NCBI RefSeq assembly: GCF_900116765.1
Contig: NZ_UETC01000005.1
Location: 62,001 to 126,000 of the forward strand
Source of the DNA: Jannaschia seohaensis
GTDB taxonomy: Bacteria > Pseudomonadota > Alphaproteobacteria > Rhodobacterales > Rhodobacteraceae
Direction of reading: 5' to 3'
Length of the DNA: 64,000 nucleotides
The translations under genes and the position numbers were made by a program. Below the pieces are notes generated by a model. The model was given only the letters and a program-made list of their open reading frames with translations. It was not told the DNA's origin and ran no database searches. This document shows positions 43,490 through 54,684 of this stretch, piece by piece (the stretch's first letter is position 1; each line of letters starts with the position of its first letter).

Positions 43490-43549
43490 CCTCGCGCCAT
43501 ATCGGCCTGTCATCGAACGAGGCAGATGCCCGTTTCCTGGACAGTGTCG

Positions 43550-44398
43550 ATGCGAAATCTCCTTCTCGCTTTCGGGTTGTGCCTCTGCCTGTCCTGCGTG
43601 TCAGCCGCCGCCGAGGGGCTTCAGGCGCTGGAGACGGAGGCGGAGATCTTCGGCTTTGAGGCGGTCGGGCGCATCGACTATGTCGGTGCCCGCGAAAGGG
43701 GCTTTTGCACCGGCACGCTGATCGCCCGGGATCTGGTGCTGACGGCGGCGCATTGCGTCGTCGATGAGGCCGGGACGGCGCGCGCGCCCTCGGATCTGAC
43801 CTTCCTCGCCGGTCTGCGTCAGGGCCGCGCCAAGGGCGAGCGGGGGGTGCGCCGCATCTCCATCCACCCGGATTATACCTATAGCGTCGATCCCTCCCGC
43901 GACATCGTCGCCTCGGATCTGGCCCTGTTGGAGCTCGACCGGCCGATCGACTATTGGTCGATCCCACCGCTGCCCACGGGCCGGACGCTGGACCGGGGGC
44001 AGGGTGTGCAGGTCGTCAGCTATGCGCGCGGGCGTGACGATACCTCCTCGCGGGAGGCGGACTGCTCGGTTCTGGACCGGCAGGACCGGGTGATCGTGCT
44101 CGATTGCCAGGCGACCTTCGGCGCGTCCGGCTCTCCGGTCTTCGTGTCGACCTCGGCCGGGTTGCGCGTCGTCTCGGTGGTTTCGGCCATCGGCACATAT
44201 GACGGGGCGCCTGCAACCTATGCCGTCACTGTGACCGATGCGATGCCCATCCTTCTCAGCGCGTTCCAATCCTCGCCGACGGGGTGGAGCGCGCCTGCGA
44301 GAGCGGCGGTCGCGGCCCCCTCGGGGCCGCGCCTCCTGCGCCCCGGCAACCGGAGCGGCGCGAGCGGCCAGATCCGGTTCCTGCGTCCGGGCCAGTGA
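43550..44398 (+). CDS. Trypsin-like serine protease, secreted (copy A)
   Basis: 282 residues from the ATG at 43550, which gives the signal peptide (RNLLLAFGLCLCLSCVSAAA); an in-frame ATG at 43526 is possible. S1 protease triad: H68 in VLTAAHCV, D123 in SDLALLEL, S193 in FGASGSPVF. Six cysteines, among them the pair flanking the histidine (GFCTGTL/AAHC). Specificity not deducible. The C-terminal 50 residues are a low-complexity A/P/R/G tail. A paralogue follows 119 bases downstream. Confidence 0.9.
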   Translation: MRNLLLAFGLCLCLSCVSAAAEGLQALETEAEIFGFEAVGRIDYVGARERGFCTGTLIARDLVLTAAHCVVDEAGTARAPSDLTFLAGLRQGRAKGERGVRRISIHPDYTYSVDPSRDIVASDLALLELDRPIDYWSIPPLPTGRTLDRGQGVQVVSYARGRDDTSSREADCSVLDRQDRVIVLDCQATFGASGSPVFVSTSAGLRVVSVVSAIGTYDGAPATYAVTVTDAMPILLSAFQSSPTGWSAPARAAVAAPSGPRLLRPGNRSGASGQIRFLRPGQ

Positions 44399-44517
44399 AG
44401 ATCTGGCGACAATGCCGCCGTCCGCGCCCTGAAAGTTTCCAACACTGGTAACAATCGCGGCCCGCTCCTGCCGCCTTCGCTCCCTAGTCAGGGGAAAAGA
44501 CAGACAGGGGGCAAGGC

Positions 44518-45318
44518 ATGCGAACGACCTTGAGCAAGATCACGATCGCCACGCTCGGCGCGTTTCTCTTTCTTTCTTCGCCGGTCTCGTCCGAGGGCCT
44601 GCGGACGCTGTCGACCGCCGACGAGAATCGCGGCTGGGAGGCGGTGGGCCGGCTCAATTTCGGGGCGGCCGGGTTTTGCACCGCCGCGATGCTGACCTCC
44701 GATATCGTGCTGACGGCGGCCCATTGCCTCTATGACAAAGGCACCGATCTGGCCGTGCCCGCGGACGAGATCGAGTTCCAGGCCGGCCTGCGCTTTGGCC
44801 GGGCCGAGGCCGCGCGGGGCATCCGCCGCATCGTGATCCATCCCGACTACGATTTCGCGGATCCGGATCGGCTGGGGCGCGTCGGCTCCGACGTGGCTCT
44901 GCTCGAATTGGACCGCCCGATCCGCGACGGCCATGTCCGCCCCTTCCGCACCCAGTTCCGGGTGGGGTCCGGGCAGGAGGTCCAGGTCGTCAGCTATGCC
45001 AAATCCCGTGCCGACGCGCCCTCGCGCGAGGAGGCCTGCGAGATTCTCACCCGCGACGAAGAGATTCTCGTTCTGTCTTGCGAGGCGGATTTCGGCTCCT
45101 CCGGAGCGCCGGTCTTCGCCAATTTCGACGGCGAGATCCGCATCGTCTCGGTGATCTCGGCCAAGGCCGTCTGGGAGGGCCGCCCGGTCGCCCTGGCCGC
45201 CGTGATGGAGGGCGAATTGAGTGCCTTGCTGGCGGAGTTCGCGCAGACGCCGGCCTTCACGCCGGTCGAGCAGGGGATCGCGCCGGGGGAGACGATCGAC
45301 ACGCGCGCGACCCAGTGA
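44518..45318 (+). CDS. Trypsin-like serine protease, secreted (copy B)
   Basis: 266 residues, signal peptide (TTLSKITIATLGAFLFLSSP). Triad: H69 in VLTAAHCL, aspartate in GSDVALLEL, serine in FGSSGAPVF. The arrangement EVQVVSYAKSRADAPSREEA parallels VQVVSYARGRDDTSSREAD in copy A, so the two arose by tandem duplication and then diverged. CTAAM replaces CTGTL before the histidine. The stop codon lies inside an 8-bp tandem repeat. GGGGGC precedes the ATG. Confidence 0.9.
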   Translation: MRTTLSKITIATLGAFLFLSSPVSSEGLRTLSTADENRGWEAVGRLNFGAAGFCTAAMLTSDIVLTAAHCLYDKGTDLAVPADEIEFQAGLRFGRAEAARGIRRIVIHPDYDFADPDRLGRVGSDVALLELDRPIRDGHVRPFRTQFRVGSGQEVQVVSYAKSRADAPSREEACEILTRDEEILVLSCEADFGSSGAPVFANFDGEIRIVSVISAKAVWEGRPVALAAVMEGELSALLAEFAQTPAFTPVEQGIAPGETIDTRATQ

Positions 45319-45351
45319 CGGCTTGACGGCTTGACGGCTTGACGGCTTGAC
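45316..45351 (+). repeat. 8-bp tandem repeat (TGACGGCT, 4.5 units)
   Basis: Four perfect TGACGGCT units plus TGAC, beginning at the stop codon of protease B. Because 8 is not a multiple of 3, successive TGA triplets close all three forward reading frames. Confidence 0.95.
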
Positions 45352-45977: not shown

Positions 45978-46063
45978 GCAGGCGTGGTGGAATCGGTAGA
46001 CACAGCGGACTTAAAATCCGCCGGGCCCAGCCCATGCGGGTTCGAGTCCCGCCGCCTGCACCA
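45978..46063 (+). tRNA. tRNA-Leu (anticodon TAA)
   Basis: Acceptor GCAGGCG pairs with CGCCTGC, discriminator A, encoded CCA (46061-46063). Class II with long variable arm. Anticodon stem GCGGA/TCCGC encloses CTTAAAA, anticodon TAA. T-arm GCGGG-TTCGAGT-CCCGC. Downstream DNA is anomalous, so this gene may have served as an integration site. Confidence 0.97.
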
Positions 46064-46435
46064 TTGAAATCGTTAAGGGATTTTTGCTGCGCCGCCTTGG
46101 CGCTCCGGGGGCGAACGGTCTCTGGGTGCCTCATGGCTGCCAGTCAACGTGTAGACTGTCCTGGGGCTTGGCTCTGCAACCGCTGCAATGCGCTGGTGAC
46201 ACGCCCGGCGACGGACGCTCTGAGCATGCACCCCCACCAGCATGAGGTTCTCCGCCATGTTCCGATCCGTTATCTCAGACCACCTGACGCTCGTCCGCGG
46301 AATTGGCGTGGATCATGATCCGCTGCCGCCGGTCGGAGCGAAAAACGGTTGTCACTCGGCCAGATTTAGGGGATCTAGCCGTCAAACGACATGCCACTTG
46401 GGGAATGTAGGGTACATGCAGGATTTAGTCAGTTC
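46064..46435. other. Non-coding stretch downstream of tRNA-Leu
   Basis: 372 bases with no supported gene. Short frames on both strands lack any recognisable feature. No copy of the tRNA 3' end (an att repeat) was found here or further right. GC content falls towards 46350, where the QueC-like gene begins. Confidence 0.5.
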
Positions 46436-47560
46436 ATGAAGCGGCGGGTAGTTGTATGGCCGAGCGAGTCTTTGCGAGCGGGGGTCAAGAGACGCGAATT
46501 TGTTTCGGAATATTTTGACGGAGACCGGCTGGTCACCAAGAGAAATGTGTTTTTTGAGACGACGTCTGAGGGGGCTGGCGCTTCACTCCCTACAGCGGAT
46601 TGGGCACTGCTAAGCGTTCTGTTTAACGCGATGCTGTACAAAAGAGATATCTTCATCAAGGCGCCAATATCGAGGCAGCTCGTTCACAACCTGGATGAGT
46701 TTCAAAGGGCCTTTAACATGTGGGCCCCACAGCTAACCGTAGTTGATATTCGTGCGGACCAAGAACTGGATATTGTACCAAAGCACTCAACCAATGAAGC
46801 GGTTATGACTTTTTCAGGCGGCGTGGATGCTAGCTTCGCCGCCTACAGGCAAATTTTCAAAAAGCCGGGGTATCGTCATAGAGACTTAAAAGTCGCGATC
46901 CTCGCTCATGGATTTGACTTTTCGCTGGGAAAACAGGAGCCATTCGACGTTGCTCGAGCGGCTGCAGAGCAGATGTTGGAAGGGACAGGGGTTGAAGTCG
47001 CCGTTGTTCGCACGAACGTAAGAACAATAATGAAGAATTGGGAACTCGCGCATGGCTTAGCGCTTGCTGCATGCTTGCACCTGTTTAGCCAACGATACCA
47101 ACACGGCCTGATCGCGGGGGATGAGCCCTATACAAATCTGCAATTTCCTTGGGGTTCCACGCCCTTGACGAACCACCTTCTCTCGAACTCCAATTTTTCA
47201 ATCGAGACAGACGGCTCGGCCTACACGAGAACTACCAAGGTGATGCACCTTTCAAGCTGGAAAGCCGCGGTTAATAATGTCCGTGTGTGTTGGGAGGGGC
47301 CAAAGACAGGGAGAAATTGCGGGAAATGTGAAAAGTGCATTCGTACAATTTTGAATTTTCGCGCTTGTGGGCTTAGCTTGCCGTCGGCTTTCCCTTGTGA
47401 TGTAACCGACGAGCAGATCAGCCTCATCAAAGTAAGGAACAATATCCAGCGCGATTACCTTGAAGACATCTTACGTGTAGCTCGCGAGAGATATGGTGAT
47501 GTCCGTTGGGTACAGCTCCTTAACGACGTGATCGTTAAATACAATGCTCGCGTTGGTTGA
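46436..47560 (+). CDS. QueC-like PP-loop ATPase of unknown function
   Basis: 374 residues from the ATG at 46436 (an upstream in-frame start at 46391 is possible; no good ribosome-binding site for either). It contains an ATP-pyrophosphatase PP-loop, FSGGVDASFAAY (S127-S133), and a C-terminal zinc site with C285 (RVCWEGP), C295, C298 and C301 (NCGKCEKC). The same C-x(9)-C-x2-C-x2-C layout is found in 7-cyano-7-deazaguanine synthase QueC. Between them lie VAILAHGFDFSLGKQEPF and LIAGDEPYTNLQFPWGSTPL. It is longer than QueC (about 230) owing to a 120-residue N-terminal part. Codon use is AT-richer than every neighbour. No queD, queE or queF beside it. Related proteins of this length are annotated only as hypothetical or deazaguanine-synthase-like. 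Function unknown. Confidence 0.85.
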   Translation: MKRRVVVWPSESLRAGVKRREFVSEYFDGDRLVTKRNVFFETTSEGAGASLPTADWALLSVLFNAMLYKRDIFIKAPISRQLVHNLDEFQRAFNMWAPQLTVVDIRADQELDIVPKHSTNEAVMTFSGGVDASFAAYRQIFKKPGYRHRDLKVAILAHGFDFSLGKQEPFDVARAAAEQMLEGTGVEVAVVRTNVRTIMKNWELAHGLALAACLHLFSQRYQHGLIAGDEPYTNLQFPWGSTPLTNHLLSNSNFSIETDGSAYTRTTKVMHLSSWKAAVNNVRVCWEGPKTGRNCGKCEKCIRTILNFRACGLSLPSAFPCDVTDEQISLIKVRNNIQRDYLEDILRVARERYGDVRWVQLLNDVIVKYNARVG

Positions 47561-47732
47561 AGCTGAGGAGATGTCTAGACCCCATGATCGGGCCCTGAAC
47601 TGACTGGGTTGGTGGCCTCTCCCGCAGCATTCTTCGTTCGAGGGTTGCGCCCGGTTGGCGGGCGCCAAGCCTCAAGAATGGGGGAGAGACCAGATGCAGA
47701 ATAGCACGTTCATTGGACTTGATCCGTCCTGA
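47561..47732 (+). mobile_element. 5' end of an IS110-family element (fragment)
   Basis: GGGGGAGAGACCAG leads into an ATG (47694) reading MQNSTFIGLDPS and a stop at 47730. The start ...FIGLD(V)H is the beginning of IS110-type DEDD transposases, in which the first aspartate follows within a few residues of FIGL. The untranslated left end (from about 47590) is kept; the rest of the transposase is gone, cut at the junction with an IS66 piece. Confidence 0.6.
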
Positions 47733-47945
47733 CGCTTCAGCATGTAGGCCATTGCCTCGCCGAGGTCCGACTTGCGCGAGAGGCGGGCGGCCTGCGCCTT
47801 CAGCCAGGTGAAGAATTCATCGACCAATGGTCGGGACATCTCCTGCCGGACAGCCCGGCGGTGGTCCGGGTCGGACCCACGAATTGCATCCCGAAGCTTG
47901 TAAAGTGCCGCGATGCGCAAGAGCGCCTCGTCGTAAGCATGCGCC
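47733..47945 (-). mobile_element. IS66-family transposase (TnpC) internal fragment
   Basis: Minus-strand reading AYDEALLRIAALYKLRDAIR, then DPDHRRAVRQEMSRPLVDEF, FTWLKAQAARLSRKSDLGEA, MAYMLKRQ. This is the conserved helical part of IS66 transposases (ALY.IE..IRG....R..RQ...PL...L..WL......LS.KS.LA.AI.Y.L.R). Around 70 codons survive of about 500, abutting the IS110 fragment on one side and an IS66 tnpA piece on the other. Confidence 0.75.
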
Positions 47946-47992
47946 GAGGGCCGTCTGGTGGGGATGCTGTCTTGCGGGTTACCGGCGTCCTT

Positions 47993-48111
47993 ATGGACGC
48001 ACACGAAGACACCCCCCGCATTCAGGTTTTGCCGGTTTCCGACATGGGGCGCCGTCGCCGTTGGACGGATGCCGAGAAGGTCCGGATTGTTGAGGAGAGC
48101 TACAGGCCAGG
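47993..48111 (+). mobile_element. IS66-family accessory gene tnpA, N-terminal fragment
   Basis: From the ATG at 47993: MDAHEDTPRIQVLPVSDMGR, RRRWTDAEKVRIVEESYRPG. This is the start of IS66 TnpA (OrfA) proteins, whose helix-turn-helix begins RRRW..E.K..IV.ES. The frame then runs without a stop into an unrelated amidohydrolase tail, marking a deletion or recombination joint at about 48111. Confidence 0.75.
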
Positions 48112-48385
48112 CATGACGCCGGCCGCGCTCCAAGCCCTGGCGTCCGCCGATCCCGATGGCTTGGAGGGCGCCGGGCGGCTGGTCTCGTCCAATCCGGCGC
48201 GGGCCCTGGGCCTCGCCGATCTCGGCGTGCTGCGGGCGGGCGAGCGGGCGGACCTGTTCGTGACGGATCGGGCGGGGCGCGCTGTCCTCACCCTCTCCGA
48301 AAGCGAGGTCATCCACCACATCGACACGCTCGACCTGAGCCTTGCGAGCCAGCCCGCGCGGGCGCCCTTTAAGAAAGTATCATGA
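48112..48385 (+). pseudogene. C-terminal fragment of an amidohydrolase, possibly PhnM-like
   Basis: AALQALASADPDGLEGAGRL, VSSNPARALGLADLGVLRAG, ERADLFVTDRAGRAVLTLSE. NPARALGL.D.G.L..G.RADL is the closing motif of metal-dependent amidohydrolases including PhnM (ribose methylphosphonate triphosphate diphosphatase). The catalytic part is absent. Adjacent decayed phn genes on the same strand make a PhnM-type origin likely but not certain. Joined in frame to the IS66 tnpA start, so a chimeric 174-codon frame exists by accident. Confidence 0.6.
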
Positions 48386-48452
48386 ACGGGTCCGTGAGCT
48401 GTTACGTCCAAAGCAGATGGTCGGTTCAAGGAATTCATTCGGATGAATCGCC

Positions 48453-48795
48453 ATGAGCTCAGCCCTGATCCTCAGCTCGGTCTCGCGCCATTTCGCTGAC
48501 ACCCGCGCGGTCGATCAGGTGTCGCTGTCGATCACATCCCGATAGTTCGTCGGCGTGATCGGCCACTCCGGCGCCGGTAAGTCCACCCTGCTCTGCGTCG
48601 TCAACCGGCTCATCGCCCCCAGTTCGGGGTCGAGTCCGTTTGGCGAGACCGAGATCACGACGCTGATGGGCCGGGCGCTGCGGAATTGGCGGCGCGACTG
48701 CACGATGATCTTCCAGTAGTTCAACCTCGTCGACCGCCCGGGCGGACCAACGTCCAGATCGGTCGTCTCGGCTCCTCCTCCTGTGCGACGGCCTA
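48453..48795 (+). pseudogene. phnC: phnC remnant (phosphonate ABC transporter ATPase)
   Basis: From the ATG at 48453: SSVSRHFADTRAVDQVSLSI, stop TAG at 48543, then [20 protein letters not shown] (Walker A), [14 protein letters not shown], stop TAG at 48717, FNLVDR, then a frameshift into TNVQIGRLGSS. PhnC normally reads ...[18 protein letters not shown] and ...MIFQQFNLVDRL.VLTNVLIGRLG, so both TAGs sit where a CAG glutamine is expected. Only the first 40% of the gene remains. No functional ATPase can be made. Confidence 0.85.
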
Positions 48796-48814
48796 AACGG
48801 CGACCCATGGCGGA

Positions 48815-49427
48815 CTCATCCCGACGCTGAACACGCTCAAGCAGGACGGCAAGACTGGCTACTATTCGATCATAGTGGCCCGCTGCGACAGCGGCATCGA
48901 CACCCTTGGACGACGCCCAGGGCTTGATCCACACCATCGCCGACCCCGATAGCACCTCGGCTATGCCGTGCTTTTCTTTCAACATGGTGGAGCGCGTCGG
49001 CCTGGTGCCCGAGGAGTTCTTCGGCACCGTCCCCTTGTCTGGCTCCCATGAGGCGACCCTCTCCTGCGTCTTCAACGGCACCTCCGACACCGCAGCGACC
49101 TATCAGGATAACGAGGCCAACGGCGTCTATCAGCGCATGGAAGACAAGAGCGCGATTGCCGCCGGCGAGATCTTCAAGATCTGCGACAGCGCCTAGATCA
49201 CCTCTGGCCTCTGGACCTTCCGCGCGAACCTGCCGGCCGCGCTGATCGAGGACATCACCACCGCCATCAAGGCGTTTCCCGAGGCCGCCCCAGATGGCTT
49301 CAAGCTCAATTCCTCCTGGAGTGCCGAGGATCCGAACGCGGATCTGGGTGTCACCCGCGTCGACCATCAACGCCACGAGTGGATCATCAACATGGGCGCT
49401 TGGCTGCGCGACGAGCGCCGGGGCTGA
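48815..49427 (+). pseudogene. phnD: phnD remnant (phosphonate-binding protein)
   Basis: Lacks the signal peptide and first third. KQDGKTGYYSIIVARCDSGI is followed by a one-base insertion (about 48905), then DDAQGLIHTIADPDSTSA, VPEEFFGTVPLSGSHEATLS, VFNGTSDTAATYQDNEANGV, stop TAG at 49194, ITSGLWTFRANLPAALIEDI and a normal-looking end (HEWIINMGAWLRDERRG). Periplasmic phosphonate-binding fold by pattern (SG.D....L......ADP.STS; FNG..D.A.T). Directly follows the phnC remnant, as in intact phnCDE operons. Confidence 0.85.
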
Positions 49428-49498
49428 GACGCCGGGCAGGGCGCGGGAGACACCCTCGTGCCCTGCTTGCCGCCCCAAGGGGGCCGACGTGACCGCTT

Positions 49499-49979
49499 TC
49501 GCTGATCCGTCCCTGTCCGAGGCGCCCCGCCCTCGGCCCGGATCGCTCGGTTCGAGGCCGATTTCGCCGACCGCTGCCGCCGCGCGCCTGGCTGATTGAG
49601 ACGGGGCTGTTTGTGATCGTCTTCTATGTCACGGCCCTGCTTGGCGACTCCTTCAAGGTCACCCAAGTCACGATGCCGGACGGCGCGCGCGAATGCCGTT
49701 GGAGCATCTCGGCCGGCATTCCGCGCCTGACCGAATATGTCGAAAAGACGGTCCCCTTGACTCGGTGGGAGAGCTTCTTCGCCGATATCGCGGGCGTGGT
49801 TCTGGCGCTTCGACAAATGGATGCGCCTGCGGCTGAAGACGATCCTCATCGCCTTCATGGCGACGGTGCAGGGCGTGGTCGGCGGGTTCCTTCTGTCCTT
49901 CGCGTCGTCGCGGAGCCGCGTCGCGTTCAGCCTGCCCATCTTTCGCTTCGTCGGGGGCGTTGCCTTGCTGATCCTGTGA
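49499..49979 (+). pseudogene. phnE: phnE remnant (phosphonate ABC permease)
   Basis: GTG 49499: TAFADPSLSEAPRPRPGSLG, frameshift, then LIETGLFVIVFYVTALLGDS (first helix), VTQVTMPDGARECRWSISAG, TRWESFFADIAG. A second frameshift (near 49800) leads into WFWRFDKWMRLRLKTILIAF, MATVQGVVGGFLLSFASS (second helix), then stop TGA at 49977. This is the N-terminal half of PhnE. An unidentified 30-codon stretch (GRFAGAKPRVIALEQISGKA) follows to 50080. Confidence 0.82.
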
Positions 49980-50174
49980 GGCGCCCTCGCGGGGCGCTTT
50001 GCCGGAGCGAAGCCCCGTGTCATCGCACTCGAACAAATCTCGGGCAAGGCGCACCCGAGCATCTTCGGTGAGCCGCGATGAAGACGACCAGCGCTCGACA
50101 GGAACCGACCCAAGGGCGGAGCGGCCCGAGCCCTCCCAGAACGCGGATCGGACCGTCCCGACAGCAGGTCGCGC

Positions 50175-51288
50175 ATGACCCGCACGTTCCAAGGCGCGAC
50201 CGTCTGCCTGCCGGACCAGATCGCCGAGATCGGCGGACCGGCGCAGGGGTCCGCGCAGGGGGAAATCGTCGACGCGAGCGGCCGCATCCTGGCCCCGGCC
50301 GTCATCGATCTCCATGGCGATGCGTTCGAGCGGCAGGTCATGCCGCGGCCGGGCACCTATTTCCCGCACGACGTCGCGGCGCTCGACACGGACCGGCAAC
50401 TTGCGGCCAACGCCATCGCCACCGCATATCTCGCGATTACGCTCGGCTAGGAGGCGGGCCTGCGCGCGGCGTCGCGCGGGCGCGCCCTGATCGAAGCGAT
50501 GCGGGCGCTGGCGCCGCGCTTCCTGGTGGAGAACCGCGTTCAGCGCCGCTGGGAAAGCATCGCCTATCCGGAAGCGGCGGAGACGATGGCCTGGGCGCTA
50601 CAAGACCCGCTAACGCCGTGGATCGCCTTCAATGACCACACATCGCTGACGATGCGGGCCTTCGAACGCGGCCCAGACTTCACCGCCGCCGCGCTCGATT
50701 ACGACCGGCTGCGGCAGCGCAGGGCGGGCCATGCCAAACGCTCCGGCCAGACCGAGGACGAATATCTCGCGCGCCTCCGAACCGTCTGGGACAGGCGCGC
50801 CGAGGTGCCGGAGCTCGTCGCGCGGGTCGCCGCCATGGGCAGGGCCCATGGGGCGCCGATGCTGAGCCATGACGACACGAGGGCCGAGACGCGCGCCTGA
50901 TTCCGCGCCATCGGCGCCCAGACCGCCGAGTTCCCGATGGCCCTTGGAAGCCGACCAGGCCGCGCAGGAAGGGGGGCGACACGATCGTCTTAGGCGCGCC
51001 AAACGCGGCGCGCGGGGGCAGCCATATCGGCTCGCTCGCGGCGAGGGGCATGGTCGAGGCGGGGCTCTGCGATGCGTTGGCTTCGGATTACTTCTACCCC
51101 GCGATGCTGGCCGCCGTGGCGCGGCTGGATGCGGAGAAGCGGGCGGATCGGCTGGCCCTCTGGTCGCTGATTTCCTCTGGCATGTGCGCGGATTTGGTGC
51201 TGCTCGACTGGCCAAGGGGGCAGGGCCGGCGATCCTCTGCGCCTCGCTCCAGGGCCGCACGGCATTCTTGGGCCGACCGCCTGGATGA
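50175..51288 (+). pseudogene. phnM: phnM remnant (ribose methylphosphonate triphosphate diphosphatase)
   Basis: Reads LAPAVIDLHGDAFERQVMPR, DTDRQLAANAIATAYLAITL, stop TAG 50448, ...FLVENRVQRRWESIAYPEAA, GRAHGAPMLSHDDTRAETRA, stop TGA 50898, a frameshift about 50940, TIVLGAPNAARGGSHIGSLA, EAGLCDALASDYFYPAMLAA, ADRLALWSLISSG, an internal deletion, CADLVLLDWP, a frameshift, and AGPAILCASLQGRTAF to the end. Metal-site histidines (DLHGD, SHDD) are recognisable. In intact C-P lyase pathways PhnM releases pyrophosphate from the ribose methylphosphonate triphosphate. No phnG-L, phnN or second phnE is visible. Confidence 0.85.
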
Positions 51289-51936
51289 TCGCCATCCCCG
51301 ATTGGGCCTCCAGGCACACCGAACGATCCCGAGCCCAAGCGACAGACAGAGGCGCGCCGTGACGCTCGGTGCCCGACTGCCGTGTGATCGCCGCGCATCG
51401 TGCCTGGCCGATCTTGGCTGACGGCTGCGGCGGGCCGGATGGGCCTGCACGGCCCCCTTACCTCTGGCTCCGGAAAGAGGTGTTCCGTGTTCCGGACGAT
51501 CCGTCGCGGTGGCTGGACCGCATTCAGATGCCCGCGCGTGTGGGGGAGGCGGAGAGTTGGAGGGTTATCGAGAATGGTCGGCACCTGCGCCGCCAGGGCC
51601 CTCGCGAGAGGATCGAGAGCAACCGATCGGGGTCGAGCGCCCGCGGCGTCGCTCCGCATCTAGGGCAGGAGCCCCGGGTGACTGGTGACAGCCCGAAGGG
51701 CTCCGGGCCGCCCGCGACGCCGGGCGTGGCAGGCTGAGACCCCGGCGATGTCGCTCCCTAGAAGCCCAGTATGCCGCCAGGCAAGCGGCAAGGGGGACGC
51801 TAAAGGCTTCTCCAAAGGGACGATGCGGCGACCCCGCTGTGCGGTCACGACCGAGGCAACGCCTCGCCAATCGCGAGCGAGGCGGGGCCGGGCCTCTCCG
51901 GGTCCGGATCAGACGGCCCCCGAGGGCCCCCCACCG
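51289..51936. other. Decayed or non-coding stretch between phnM remnant and lytic transglycosylase
   Basis: 648 bases. Several overlapping short frames, none with recognisable features. By position it may hold further decayed island DNA. A perfect 8-bp hairpin CGCCTCGC/GCGAGGCG lies at 51860-51884, downstream of the mltB-type gene, and could end that transcript. The right-hand limit of the anomalous segment is probably here. Confidence 0.45.
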
Positions 51937-52740
51937 TCAGTTGATCTTCGCCGCGGATAGGGCGATGGCCTGTTGATACACCGTCGCCGCGTTCCACTCG
52001 TTGAGCACGCGGAAATTGGGCGTCCCCTCCTGGAAGGGCTGTCCCGGCTGCCAGCCCTTTTGCCGCAGGAAGTTGGCGGTGGAGGCCATGGCATCGGCCA
52101 TGTTGTAGAAATCGACCCGCCCGTCGCCATTCCCGTCGGCCCCATAGCGCATCGCGTTGCCCGGCAGGAACTGCGTATGCCCGAGCTCTCCGTGGGCGGC
52201 GCCCGACTGACTGGGTGACAGCATCCCCCGGTCCACCATCCGCAGCGCGGCCAGCGCGTGGGGCGTGAAGAACTCCGAGCGGCGGCAATCATAGGCCACC
52301 GTCAGGATCGACGAGACGACGTTCTCCGACCCCATGTTGCGGCCGAAGCCGGTCTCCATCCCGTGGATCGCCAGCAAGATGCCCGCGGGCACCCCATAGC
52401 GTTGCTCCAACGAATTGAAGAACGCCCGGTTCTGGTCCAGCCGCCGCGTCGCCTGCGCCGCGAACCCGTCGATGGACCCCAGGCGGATGCGGATGAAGTC
52501 GTCCAGCGCATAGCGGACGCCTTTCTGGTTGCGATCGGCGGCGATGGTGCGCCTAGCGTAGCTGGCGCCCGCCAGCGCCTGCAAGCCCGGCTGGCCGATC
52601 CCCGCCGCCGCGGCCTCTTGGGCGAATTGCTGCTTCCAGCGCTCCCATCCGCTGGCGTCGTTGCCGCATTGCGCGGCAAGCGCCGGCGTGGCCGCGAGGC
52701 CGAGGGCAAAGGCCAAGGATCTGAAAAGGGTCGGTCGCAT
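51937..52740 (-). CDS. Lytic murein transglycosylase, MltB/SLT_2 type
   Basis: 267 residues from the ATG at 52740, with signal peptide (LFRSLAFALGLAATPALA). The catalytic glutamate is E129 in LAIHGMETGFGRNMG. Family segments also include ALRMVDRGMLSPSQSGAAHG ELGHTQFLPGNAMRYGAD (split here for length) and a DGNGDGRVDFYN calcium loop. Cleaves peptidoglycan glycan strands to 1,6-anhydro products in the periplasm. One cysteine near the N-terminus is not a lipobox, so probably soluble. Confidence 0.92.
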   Translation of the reverse strand: MRPTLFRSLAFALGLAATPALAAQCGNDASGWERWKQQFAQEAAAAGIGQPGLQALAGASYARRTIAADRNQKGVRYALDDFIRIRLGSIDGFAAQATRRLDQNRAFFNSLEQRYGVPAGILLAIHGMETGFGRNMGSENVVSSILTVAYDCRRSEFFTPHALAALRMVDRGMLSPSQSGAAHGELGHTQFLPGNAMRYGADGNGDGRVDFYNMADAMASTANFLRQKGWQPGQPFQEGTPNFRVLNEWNAATVYQQAIALSAAKIN

Positions 52741-52815
52741 GGCTGCGGTCTCCGGTCTGTATGACGGTCTGGTCTGTTGGCGATAGGGTAACAGACGGAG
52801 ATGGCGCGGCAATCG

Positions 52816-54273
52816 TTATGCGATGACATCGCCCGCGAGGGCGTGGATGCGGTCGCAGTCGAGCGCTCGCGCCAGATGATCCGCCAAATCGTCCAGCGCC
52901 GCCTCGACCCCCGCGCCATAGCTCACCTCCCCTGGCGCCGCGCCCAGCCGCGCGAGCGCGGCGGCGCGGAAGGCATCTCCGGCAAAGAGCCCGTGCACGT
53001 AGCAGCCGCGCACCCGCCCGTCGGCGCTTTCGGCACCCACACGCACGCCGTTCCGCTCCAGCCAGCCGCGCGCGGTGTCGGGGCCGGTGGTCTCGCCCAG
53101 ATGGATCTCATAGCCGGACACCTCGGCGCCCGACCCCAGATCCCGCGCCGTGACCCGCGCCAGATGCTTGCGCGGCCGCATCACCGTGTCGACCGCCAGA
53201 TGCCCCAGCCCCGGCACGGTCCGGGCGGGCCCCTCCAATCCCTCCGGGTCCGCGATACTCCGTCCCAGCATCTGATAGCCGCCGCAGATCCCCAGCACAT
53301 GCCCGCCCCGCCGGACATGGGCGGCGAGGTCGATATCCCATCCCTCCGCCCGGAACGCGTCCAGATCGGCGATGGTGGTCTTGGAGCCCGGGATCAGCAC
53401 CAGGTCGCAGACGGGCAGGGGGCGGCCCGGCGCGACGATGTCGAGCGACACGCCCGGCTCCGCCGCAAGCGGGTCGAGATCGTCGAAATTGGCGATCCGG
53501 CCCAGCCGGGGCACGGCGATGCGGAAGCCCTCGGCTCTTGGCGTCGAGCGGATGTCGAGAATGTCTTCGGCCGGCAGGCGATGCGCGCCGTCGAACCAGG
53601 ACACGATACCCAGGGGGGGCCAGCCCGTCCGGTCCGCGATCTGCCGCATGCCCTCGTCGAAAAGGGTCACGTCGCCTCGGAACTTGTTGACCAGGAACCC
53701 CACGATCCGCGCCGCGTCGCCAGGGTCCAGGACCGCCTGCGTGCCGACCAGCTGCGCGATGACGCCCCCGCGGTCGATATCCCCCGCGAGGATCACCGGC
53801 AGACCGGCCGCCTCGGCGAAGCCCATATTGGCGATGTCGCCGGCGCGCAGATTGATCTCGGCCGGGCTGCCGGCGCCCTCGACGATCACGAGGTCGGCAT
53901 CCCGCGCCAGGCGCCGGAAACTCTCCAGACAGTCGCCCAGCAGCCGCGGCTTCAACGCCGCGTAGTCCCGCGCCCGCACGGTCGCCACCCGCTGTCCGCG
54001 CACCACCACCTGCGATCCCGTTTCCGACTCAGGCTTCAACAGAACCGGGTTCATGTCCACGCGCGGCGCCACCCCGCAGGCCATCGCCTGCAACGCCTGC
54101 GCCCGCCCGATCTCGCCCCCGTCTTCGGTGACGGCGGCGTTGTTCGACATGTTCTGCGGCTTGAAGGGCCGCACCCGCAGCCCCGCGCGCGCGAAGTGAC
54201 GGCAGAGCCCCGCCACCAGCAGCGACTTGCCGACATTGGACCCCGCGCCCTGCATCATGATCGCTCGCGCCAT
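52816..54273 (-). CDS. cobQ: Cobyric acid synthase (glutamine-hydrolysing)
   Basis: 485 residues that amidate cobyrinic acid a,c-diamide to cobyric acid in B12 synthesis. N-terminal P-loop-like dethiobiotin-synthetase fold: [41 protein letters not shown]-terminal class I glutamine amidotransferase: C330 in [15 protein letters not shown], and a histidine in [12 protein letters not shown]. No cobalamin riboswitch was recognised upstream, and no other cob genes are in the window. Confidence 0.95.
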
Positions 54274-54684
54274 CGCCGCACCTCCTGCGCCGTCTCTCCG
54301 GGGCGCGGCGACGCGCGTCAACCACCCCCGTCTTCTGGCCGGAAATACTCCGGGGGAGCGAAGCGGGGGCAGAGCCCCCTCCGCGCTCTCGACCGGATCC
54401 GGACTGGTGGACCAGGGCGCCGCGCGCCAGCGCCGCTCGGAGGGGGGCTCGATGCCCCCGTCCGAGCGTGCTCCCGGCCAGGCGCCGCGATGCCTAGCTG
54501 ACCCGGGCGCCGCTGGGCACGAACACGCTCCGCCGATCGACTTTTCGATCTCGCCGCCTTCGGCCCGCCGCACCGGGAGGCGGACTTGCCCGGACCCTGG
54601 CCTCGGGCCAAGCGCCGCTGCGATGGTCCGTGGAGCCGCGCGGCTGCCGATCGCCGCGCGGCTCCCCTCGAAAATCGCCCGGGC
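54274..54684. other. Intergenic region with stem-loops between cobQ and plsC
   Basis: 411 bases without a supported gene. Contains repeat copy 8 (54331-54380), a 33-base hairpin (GCTCGGA-GGGGGC / GCCCCC-TCCGAGC, 54435-54467) and a perfect 12-bp stem (GAGCCGCGCGGC / GCCGCGCGGCTC, 54633-54664) 20 bases after the plsC stop. The last one is well placed to end plsC transcription on the minus strand, though no T-run follows. Confidence 0.55.
54331..54380 (+). repeat. Intergenic repeat family, copy 8
   Basis: TCTTCTGGCCGGAAATACTC, CGGGGGAGCGAAGCGGGGGC, AGAGCCCCCT. Core AAATACTCC and TCTTC end agree with copy 4 (read on the other strand); the hairpin part is rearranged. Confidence 0.7.

Follow-up and report, generated by a model that had tools for sequence, protein, structure and literature searches.

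QueC-fold enzymes have so far been known from queuosine biosynthesis and, more recently, from protein deazaguanylation in phage defence. In QueC a carboxylate is activated with ATP and ammonia is added, and in Cap9 a protein amine is added (PMC13329287, PMC13279940; see also PMC11996544). CDG is the nucleobase used by both enzymes, and YxQxHxxE, VPxRN and YPDC are given as QueC motifs (PMC13329287). The original prediction for the gene analysed here was a lone QueC-like PP-loop protein, possibly acting in defence or in deazaguanine-like chemistry.

The window, i.e. the whole stretch of 64,000 nucleotides of Jannaschia seohaensis DNA that was analysed, contains an uninterrupted open reading frame at 46391..47560 on the plus strand. 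The family alignment favours a start at 46436, and the product predicted from this start has 374 aa (46436..47560, plus strand); we describe it as a QueC-fold PP-loop protein and putative surface-polysaccharide carboxylate ligase. All features of the gene lie on the plus strand. An N-terminal family-specific domain (about residues 1-110, 46436..46765), delimited by model secondary structure and conservation, consists in the model of three long strands followed by helix-strand-helix and contains the conserved W96 and, within the clade of the window protein, the conserved P98. The original prediction described about 120 unique N-terminal residues; the domain is real and predicted with high confidence, but is shared by the family. 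The predicted pyrophosphate-binding loop SGGVDAS is present, as claimed originally, at residues 127-133 (46814..46834); S127, G129 and D131 do not vary in an alignment of 21 members, and G129 and D131 occur in all 82 members of the larger set defined below. Conservation also delimits a TNxR motif (residues 193-196, 47012..47023), in which T193 and N194 are invariant and R196 is conserved in at least 90% of the 21-member alignment, N194 being present in 79/82 members, and a GS-x-P pocket-loop motif (residues 240-243, 47153..47164), which reads GSTP in the window protein, its third residue being most often histidine across the wider family. A conserved four-cysteine, zinc-site-like motif extends from C285 to C301 (47288..47338), and all four cysteines occur in 82/82 members; its layout, C285-x9-C295-x2-C298-x2-C301, had been compared with that of QueC, and the site is indeed present, but is one residue longer than the C(x)8CxxCxxC of QueC. 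All 19 columns invariant in the 21-member alignment occur in the window protein, which holds by definition because the alignment includes it. The gene has a GC content of 0.503, the remainder of the window 0.693, and in a scan in steps of 25 the 1125-nt stretch with the lowest GC content starts at 46426; the gene is thus AT-richer than its surroundings, as noted originally, and no other 1.1 kb of the window is as AT-rich. A scan for promoters and terminators at the gene found neither, and in particular no sigma-70-like promoter.

The AlphaFold model of the window protein has a mean pLDDT of 95.8. Its best Foldseek match in the PDB is QatC (9y02_B; E 1.3e-5, TM 0.45 by query, rmsd 9.4), which is the only match with E <0.001, followed by Cap9 (E 0.04, probability 0.99, TM 0.68 by target length); the modelled similarity to QatC is thus modest. 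The structure comparison proposed along with the original prediction therefore supports a QueC/QatC-like fold, nearest to QatC and then to Cap9. All Pfam matches are below the threshold (DUF6395, 8e-4; QueC, 0.002; CPSase_L_D1, 0.06): the protein scores 17.9 vs the 22 bits of the PF06508 cut-off, and 11.5 of the 150.3 bits needed for TIGR00364 (E 0.16), with no other NCBIfam match. The SGGxDS loop and the C(x)8CxxCxxC site of QueC are represented by the close variants SGGVDA-S and C(x)9CxxCxxC, whereas none of the QueC motifs YxQxHxxE, VPxRN and YPDC is present in the window protein, the family having the TNxR and GSxP loops instead. The zinc site C(x)19CGxCxxRR of QatC is not found either, the window protein having C(x)9CGKCEKC-IRT. 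Profiles of the family were compared with those of 13 QueC proteins and of seven QatC-like proteins, four of them over the cut-off of the QatC model. Local comparison aligned 35 columns with QueC (E 3e-4, probability 40) and 38 columns, those of the zinc motif, with the QatC-like proteins (E 3e-7, probability 93), while QatC and QueC aligned to each other over 208 columns (E 4e-15). Forced global alignment yielded E 6e-7 over 216 columns for the family and QueC, 3e-7 over 393 for the family and QatC, and 2e-20 over 232 for QatC and QueC. The family is therefore related to QueC and QatC but forms a separate, more divergent branch; in fold and zinc motif it comes nearest to QatC, although the distance from QatC to QueC is much smaller than that from the family to QueC.

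A scan of genome contigs with six short patterns identified at least 126 relatives, the best 80 of these 126 being kept, and the true number is probably larger. Conservation was calculated for 82 members, the window protein and 81 of 91 listed relatives. Conserved throughout the family are W96, SGGxD, G159, TNxR, GS[H/N]P, R265, K268 and NCGKCEKC; the last residue of SGGxDS is serine in 48, alanine in 28 and glycine in six of the 82 members, and the pocket loop has histidine in 50/82 and proline in 71/82. We propose SGGxD, TNxR, GSxP, R-x2-K, C-x(n)-NCGKCEKC and the N-terminal domain as marks of the family, and all of them are present in the window protein. QueC is matched by 10/82 members at E 0.01 (best 1e-4) and DUF6395 by 9/82 (best 7e-6); therefore a few members may pass a Pfam cut-off, but most would not. 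A tree of 123 of 127 proteins contains members from many phyla, while in the bacterial family of the host 15/394 genomes (its own included) have a member and the closest relatives of the window protein are about 35% identical to it. The family is thus broad, patchy and mostly below Pfam detection. Plasmid-borne members are labelled hypothetical protein in 15/15 records, and likewise among the 20 of 22 records listed. Two or more family copies occur together, fragments counted, at 15/108 loci.

Some branches of the family show other arrangements. At three Desulfobacterales-type loci (L030, L031, L033) a GNAT-like protein and a RimK-like ATP-grasp ligase are encoded directly upstream of the member; an ATP-grasp cluster is present in 23/81 loci and a GNAT-like cluster in 20/81, and this branch looks like another amide-forming system. 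A 936-residue ORF (L059:2986-5796) contains a QueC-like part at residues 562-923, its N-terminal part having no Pfam match. On a Priestia megaterium plasmid (L107), two tandem members, a pyruvyl transferase and a DUF6395 protein are encoded in a stretch of 15 kb; the zinc-motif family DUF6395 may be related.

The gene begins 372 bases after tRNA-Leu(UAA) (45978..46063, plus strand; ARAGORN, taa), in agreement with the earlier figure of about 370. This tRNA forms the left edge of an island of strain-specific DNA of about 5.9 kb (46064..51940, no strand, approximate limits), defined by comparison with six congeneric regions that were fetched around the gene upstream of the tRNA. The tRNA is present in 6/6 of these regions; in four of them (L165, L167, L168, L170) the match to the 51.94-56 kb part of the window begins about 115-240 bases after it, and in two (L166, L169) no match to this part was found. 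The roughly 5.9 kb after tRNA-Leu are considered extra in the window because four of the six regions are without them. Even with up to 3 mismatches allowed, the search for a repeat of the tRNA 3' end elsewhere in the window found none. Downstream of the gene, 47675..48319 (minus strand) contains a broken IS66 transposase remnant (Pfam DDE_Tnp_IS66, 8e-14 over 73 residues), and 47724-47933 is about 80% identical to DNA annotated as IS66 transposase in several plasmid records; it is followed by a fragment of a phosphonate-binding ABC protein (48906..49196, plus strand; PF12974, 1.1e-6), and the island also contains fragments matching transposase and amidohydrolase families, the latter below the cut-off. 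Hence the IS scars described near the gene were confirmed downstream but not upstream, where 46064-46440 is single-copy in the genome and unmatched by the 12 listed of 232 plasmid records, and the gene is indeed a full ORF among broken ones. Of 20 genomes of the genus searched (its own included), three others have a member, all distant (27-30%), standalone as judged by eye, and one with an internal stop; a close copy of the window gene is absent from the 19 other genomes.

Three further observations concern the flanks of the island. The 8-base unit TGACGGCT occurs in four copies at 45316-45347, in an intergenic stretch that precedes the tRNA by about 0.6 kb. Two adjacent ORFs at 43526-45318, trypsin-like serine proteases by eye, share their matching stretches in L166 and L168 and probably represent a tandem duplication. 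ARAGORN calls a tRNA-Ala with the AGC anticodon at 54398-54467, within the long ORF 52801-54501; such a tRNA is unusual in bacteria, and the call is probably a false positive.

To describe the neighbourhoods of the relatives, 101 of 154 neighbour ORFs were scanned in the clade of the window protein, all from 19 loci. Of the 53 omitted ORFs, 16 come from six short Rhodobacteraceae loci, and most of the others were either very long or more distant from the gene; for the Rhodobacteraceae, longer loci were substituted, and a separate scan covered 98 of their 130 ORFs. Nine near-duplicate loci were left aside (the Rickettsiales-like L008, L011, L013, L014 and L017, and L018, L102, L104 and L105). 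Polysaccharide pyruvyl transferase (PF04230) is the commonest neighbour family in the clade (13/101 neighbours), glycosyltransferases and flippases being next. A PF04230 gene lies at most 4 kb away at 13 of the 19 non-redundant loci (L002, L003, L004, L007, L009, L012, L015, L016, L019, L020, L045, L101, L103) vs 0.11 expected from genome-wide PF04230 counts, a figure that assumes independent loci, which they strictly are not; sequence was the sole criterion in choosing the loci, and PF04230 was singled out post hoc, after first being noticed. At nine of the 19 (L003, L004, L007, L015, L016, L020, L045, L101, L103) it is the neighbouring gene in the same orientation, separated by no more than 350 bases. 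At L012 the nearest family ORF encodes a fragment of 123 aa, and the clade member of full length lies 3,997 bases from the pyruvyl transferase. With the nine near-duplicates included, PF04230 is found at 16/28 loci, the five Rickettsiales-like ones having no pyruvyl transferase in the fetched DNA. Six of the 19 loci have none within 4 kb; since two of these, L006 (by cluster) and L010, have Polysacc_synt-type flippase genes without PF04230, a surface-polysaccharide gene is present at 15/19. At the other four (L005, L021, L022, L025) no such gene was recognised, L005 having an LpxB-like gene by eye.

The link is weak in the Rhodobacteraceae relatives (PF04230 in 3/98 neighbours), and in a wider set of 27 loci (122/126 ORFs scanned) family-2 glycosyltransferases lead with seven neighbours, PF04230 having two. 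A local profile, for which 12 of the pyruvyl transferase genes themselves served as input, detects such a gene in the fetched DNA of at least 20 loci among the complete 108 (near-duplicates counted), and it misses at least two seen otherwise (L106; near L087/L114). Plasmid contexts were examined for 8 of 15 matching annotated records: a pyruvyl transferase is directly upstream of the member in three Azospirillum records, one of them plasmid p4 of Azospirillum brasilense MTCC4038, glycosyltransferases and a pyruvyl transferase are near it in two Gloeothece records and on the Gemmobacter and Priestia plasmids, and a Nostoc plasmid has the member within a polysaccharide operon, without a pyruvyl transferase in the stretch shown. 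No glycan gene adjoins the window copy, but three PF04230 genes are present on other contigs of the host genome. In the Pfam scan of nine window ORFs, no qatA, qatB or qatD was recognised. The earlier statement that partners are missing thus holds for the window copy, but not for many close relatives, which adjoin genes for polysaccharide pyruvyl transferases, glycosyltransferases and flippases. The window gene does lie on strain-specific DNA at a tRNA, in support of the original prediction. Among the neighbours of relatives, tabulated as had been suggested, surface-polysaccharide genes recur, and no defence partner does among the 101 scanned.

Members of the family were also found on viral contigs. 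Scanning IMG/VR with the clade profile yielded five loci, and four further scans added only L183 and L184; the matches are L178-L181, L182 (identical to L185), L183 and L184. At L178, an intact member of 394 aa is followed by a polysaccharide flippase gene (Polysacc_synt_3, 3e-65), both running opposite to the adjoining phage genes, which encode an internal virion protein (phrog_511, 9e-149), a protein of an exonuclease family (3e-108) and a minor tail protein (5e-9). The member is likewise on the opposite strand at L179 and L180; it is flanked by an endolysin and a tail-fibre gene at L179, and at L180 by an endolysin on one side and matches to a phage structural protein and to Baseplate_J on the other. 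On the AT-rich viral contig L181, a weakly matching PF04230 gene (8.5e-8) is located directly upstream of the member. A tree of 47 members places L179 with L180 and separates both from L178; the window protein falls into a group of 25 rows with L178-L181 (support 88/83, not starred). The phage evidence comes from IMG/VR contigs alone; 50,697 annotated phage records, queried with the window protein (P0001) and the L180 and L178 proteins, yielded no member. A gene beside the member at L045 (L045:9108-9617) resembles, by eye, a phage tail-fibre protein, a possible further phage association.

The location of relatives in surface-sugar clusters, and of a few in phage-like contigs, suggests that the window protein modifies cell-surface sugars, which could change how phages recognise the cell. 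On balance we lean towards a QueC-fold, ATP-dependent ligase of surface-polysaccharide metabolism that spreads horizontally and is sometimes carried by phages. The glycan role is drawn from the genomic context of the relatives, and the reaction from analogy with QueC and Cap9: the enzyme would activate a carboxylate by adenylation, the most plausible substrate being the pyruvate ketal made by polysaccharide pyruvyl transferase, or a uronic acid, and the activated carboxylate would react with ammonia or an amine to give an amide, altering the charge and antigenicity of the glycan. A QueC-fold enzyme encoded beside a pyruvyl transferase would plausibly act on the very carboxylate that this transferase puts on the sugar. 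The confident model, the fold matches to QatC and Cap9 and the conserved PP-loop and four cysteines speak for this reading, in which the protein would use ATP and bind zinc. The gene would move horizontally, at times as phage cargo, and in the window it is located on the strain-specific island by tRNA-Leu; action of the window copy in trans is possible because of the three PF04230 genes on other contigs. Against this reading stand the lack of a glycan gene beside the window copy, the six clade loci without a pyruvyl transferase within 4 kb, the weak link in the Rhodobacteraceae relatives, the modest fold similarity to QatC and the pairing with GNAT and RimK-like genes instead in the Desulfobacterales branch. 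A more specific proposal, that the QueC/QatC fold has a further use in ligases which, together with pyruvyl transferases, amidate the pyruvate ketal on surface polysaccharides or conjugate it to amines, and which phages carry as glycan-conversion or superinfection-exclusion genes, is offered tentatively and is doubtful in its entirety.

A different reaction in the same setting would be conversion of an N-acetyl to an acetamidino group, or sulfur transfer, in place of carboxylate amidation. WbpG and PseA convert an N-acetyl group into an acetamidino group, and PseA is a PP-loop protein of surface-polysaccharide synthesis. The genomic setting is as for WbpG, a PP-loop O-antigen enzyme annotated as an N-sugar amidotransferase (PMC13329287). 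Nevertheless, such an activity appears unlikely, given that the only NCBIfam match of the window protein is TIGR00364 (E 0.16), that its cysteines are QueC/QatC-like and not the CxxC(x)6CxC of the WbpG cluster (PMC13329287), and that no glutaminase is found among the 25 of 93 neighbour families listed. The gene may instead be recently acquired cargo without a working role in this strain, an early pseudogene, as could be concluded from the broken genes around it on the island and from the lack of a recognisable sigma-70-like promoter and of a nearby partner; this reading is quite unlikely in view of the full-length ORF with all 19 clade-invariant residues.

The role in defence or deazaguanine chemistry considered in the original prediction is not supported. 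A Qat- or CBASS-like enzyme conjugating 7-carboxy-7-deazaguanine to a protein N-terminus could be expected from the best fold matches (QatC and Cap9), the island location, the HP dipeptide that the wider family has in its pocket loop and that resembles the HP motif of QatC (PMC13329287), and single neighbours of relatives that match PADLOC models, some of them strongly (NsnB, 8e-74; HEC-03B, 3e-60; PDC-M55A, 2e-46, the best among 25 of 57 families listed). Yet each of the 57 PADLOC families matched among the 101 neighbours was matched by one protein only, hence no defence partner recurs; the window protein itself has only a weak GajA match in PADLOC (E 0.032). The zinc spacing and pocket loop differ from those of QatC, whose model (NF041925), run on 289 genomes of the class, has no match in the host genome at E 0.001. 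The host genome (99.99% complete) has no PF06508 match over the cut-off, two partial matches being sub-threshold, and no PTPS/QueD match; of 14 genomes used as controls, the QueC search was positive over the cut-off in 12 and the PTPS search in 9, and full-length QueC proteins were recovered with PF06508 elsewhere in the class. As QueD is not found, the host lacks the known route to CDG, and the defence reading is improbable. The absence of queuosine-pathway neighbours, noted originally, extends for QueC and PTPS/QueD to the whole genome, Tgt being encoded on another contig; Tgt without QueC and QueD suggests salvage of a precursor. Tgt in a genome lacking QueC over the cut-off would also suit a replacement QueC in a host that has lost queC, but QueD/PTPS is not found either, the YxQxHxxE and YPDC motifs are missing, and a close copy occurs in 0/19 other congeneric genomes, which renders this explanation barely conceivable. 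A link to phages in the form of classical defence is thus not supported; it survives in another form, in which phages carry the gene as cargo and the surface glycan may be changed, in line with the surface-polysaccharide ligase that we favour.

In the literature searched, judged from listings, the family is not described, whether with polysaccharide, pyruvyl transferase or prophage conversion, and a search on DUF6395 returned nothing bearing on it. In the parts consulted, a 2026 survey of PF06508 mentions WbpG and not the present family, and the words pyruvyl, exopolysaccharide and glycosyltransferase are absent from its main text. The presence of the family in many phyla, its strong link to pyruvyl transferase in one clade and its occurrence on viral contigs point to a new chemistry of surface sugars beyond the known uses of the fold, and the family and pyruvyl transferase form a concrete, testable enzyme-partner pair. 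Our analysis also warns against naming lone QueC-like genes defence genes.

The viral copies share with prophage serotype-conversion genes their position by tail or lysis genes and the opposite strand. Known genes of this type usually encode glycosyl- or acetyltransferases, and a QueC fold in such a place was not found in the literature searched. The N-acetyl sugar amidotransferases of the WbpG/PseA type are likewise PP-loop proteins of surface-polysaccharide synthesis (for WbpG, PMC13329287), but have another pattern and order of cysteines, and the window protein has no NCBIfam or Pfam match to them. DUF6395 (PF19932, function not assigned) matches the window protein below the threshold over 33 residues at the zinc motif (8e-4), and only over this stretch. 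QueC (PF06508) has the PP-loop and the four-cysteine layout in common with it, but is about 222 aa long vs 374 aa, and its canonical substrate motifs are absent from the window protein. Cap9 of type IV CBASS shares the core fold, but has about 185 aa and adjoins a CD-NTase (PMC13329287), whereas the window protein has 374 aa with extensions and no CD-NTase-type neighbour was recognised among the window ORFs scanned. QatC combines, as the window protein does, a QueC core with N- and C-terminal extensions in about 400 aa, and shares the HP dipeptide with the pocket loop of the wider family; the relatives of the window gene, however, adjoin glycan genes and not qatABD.
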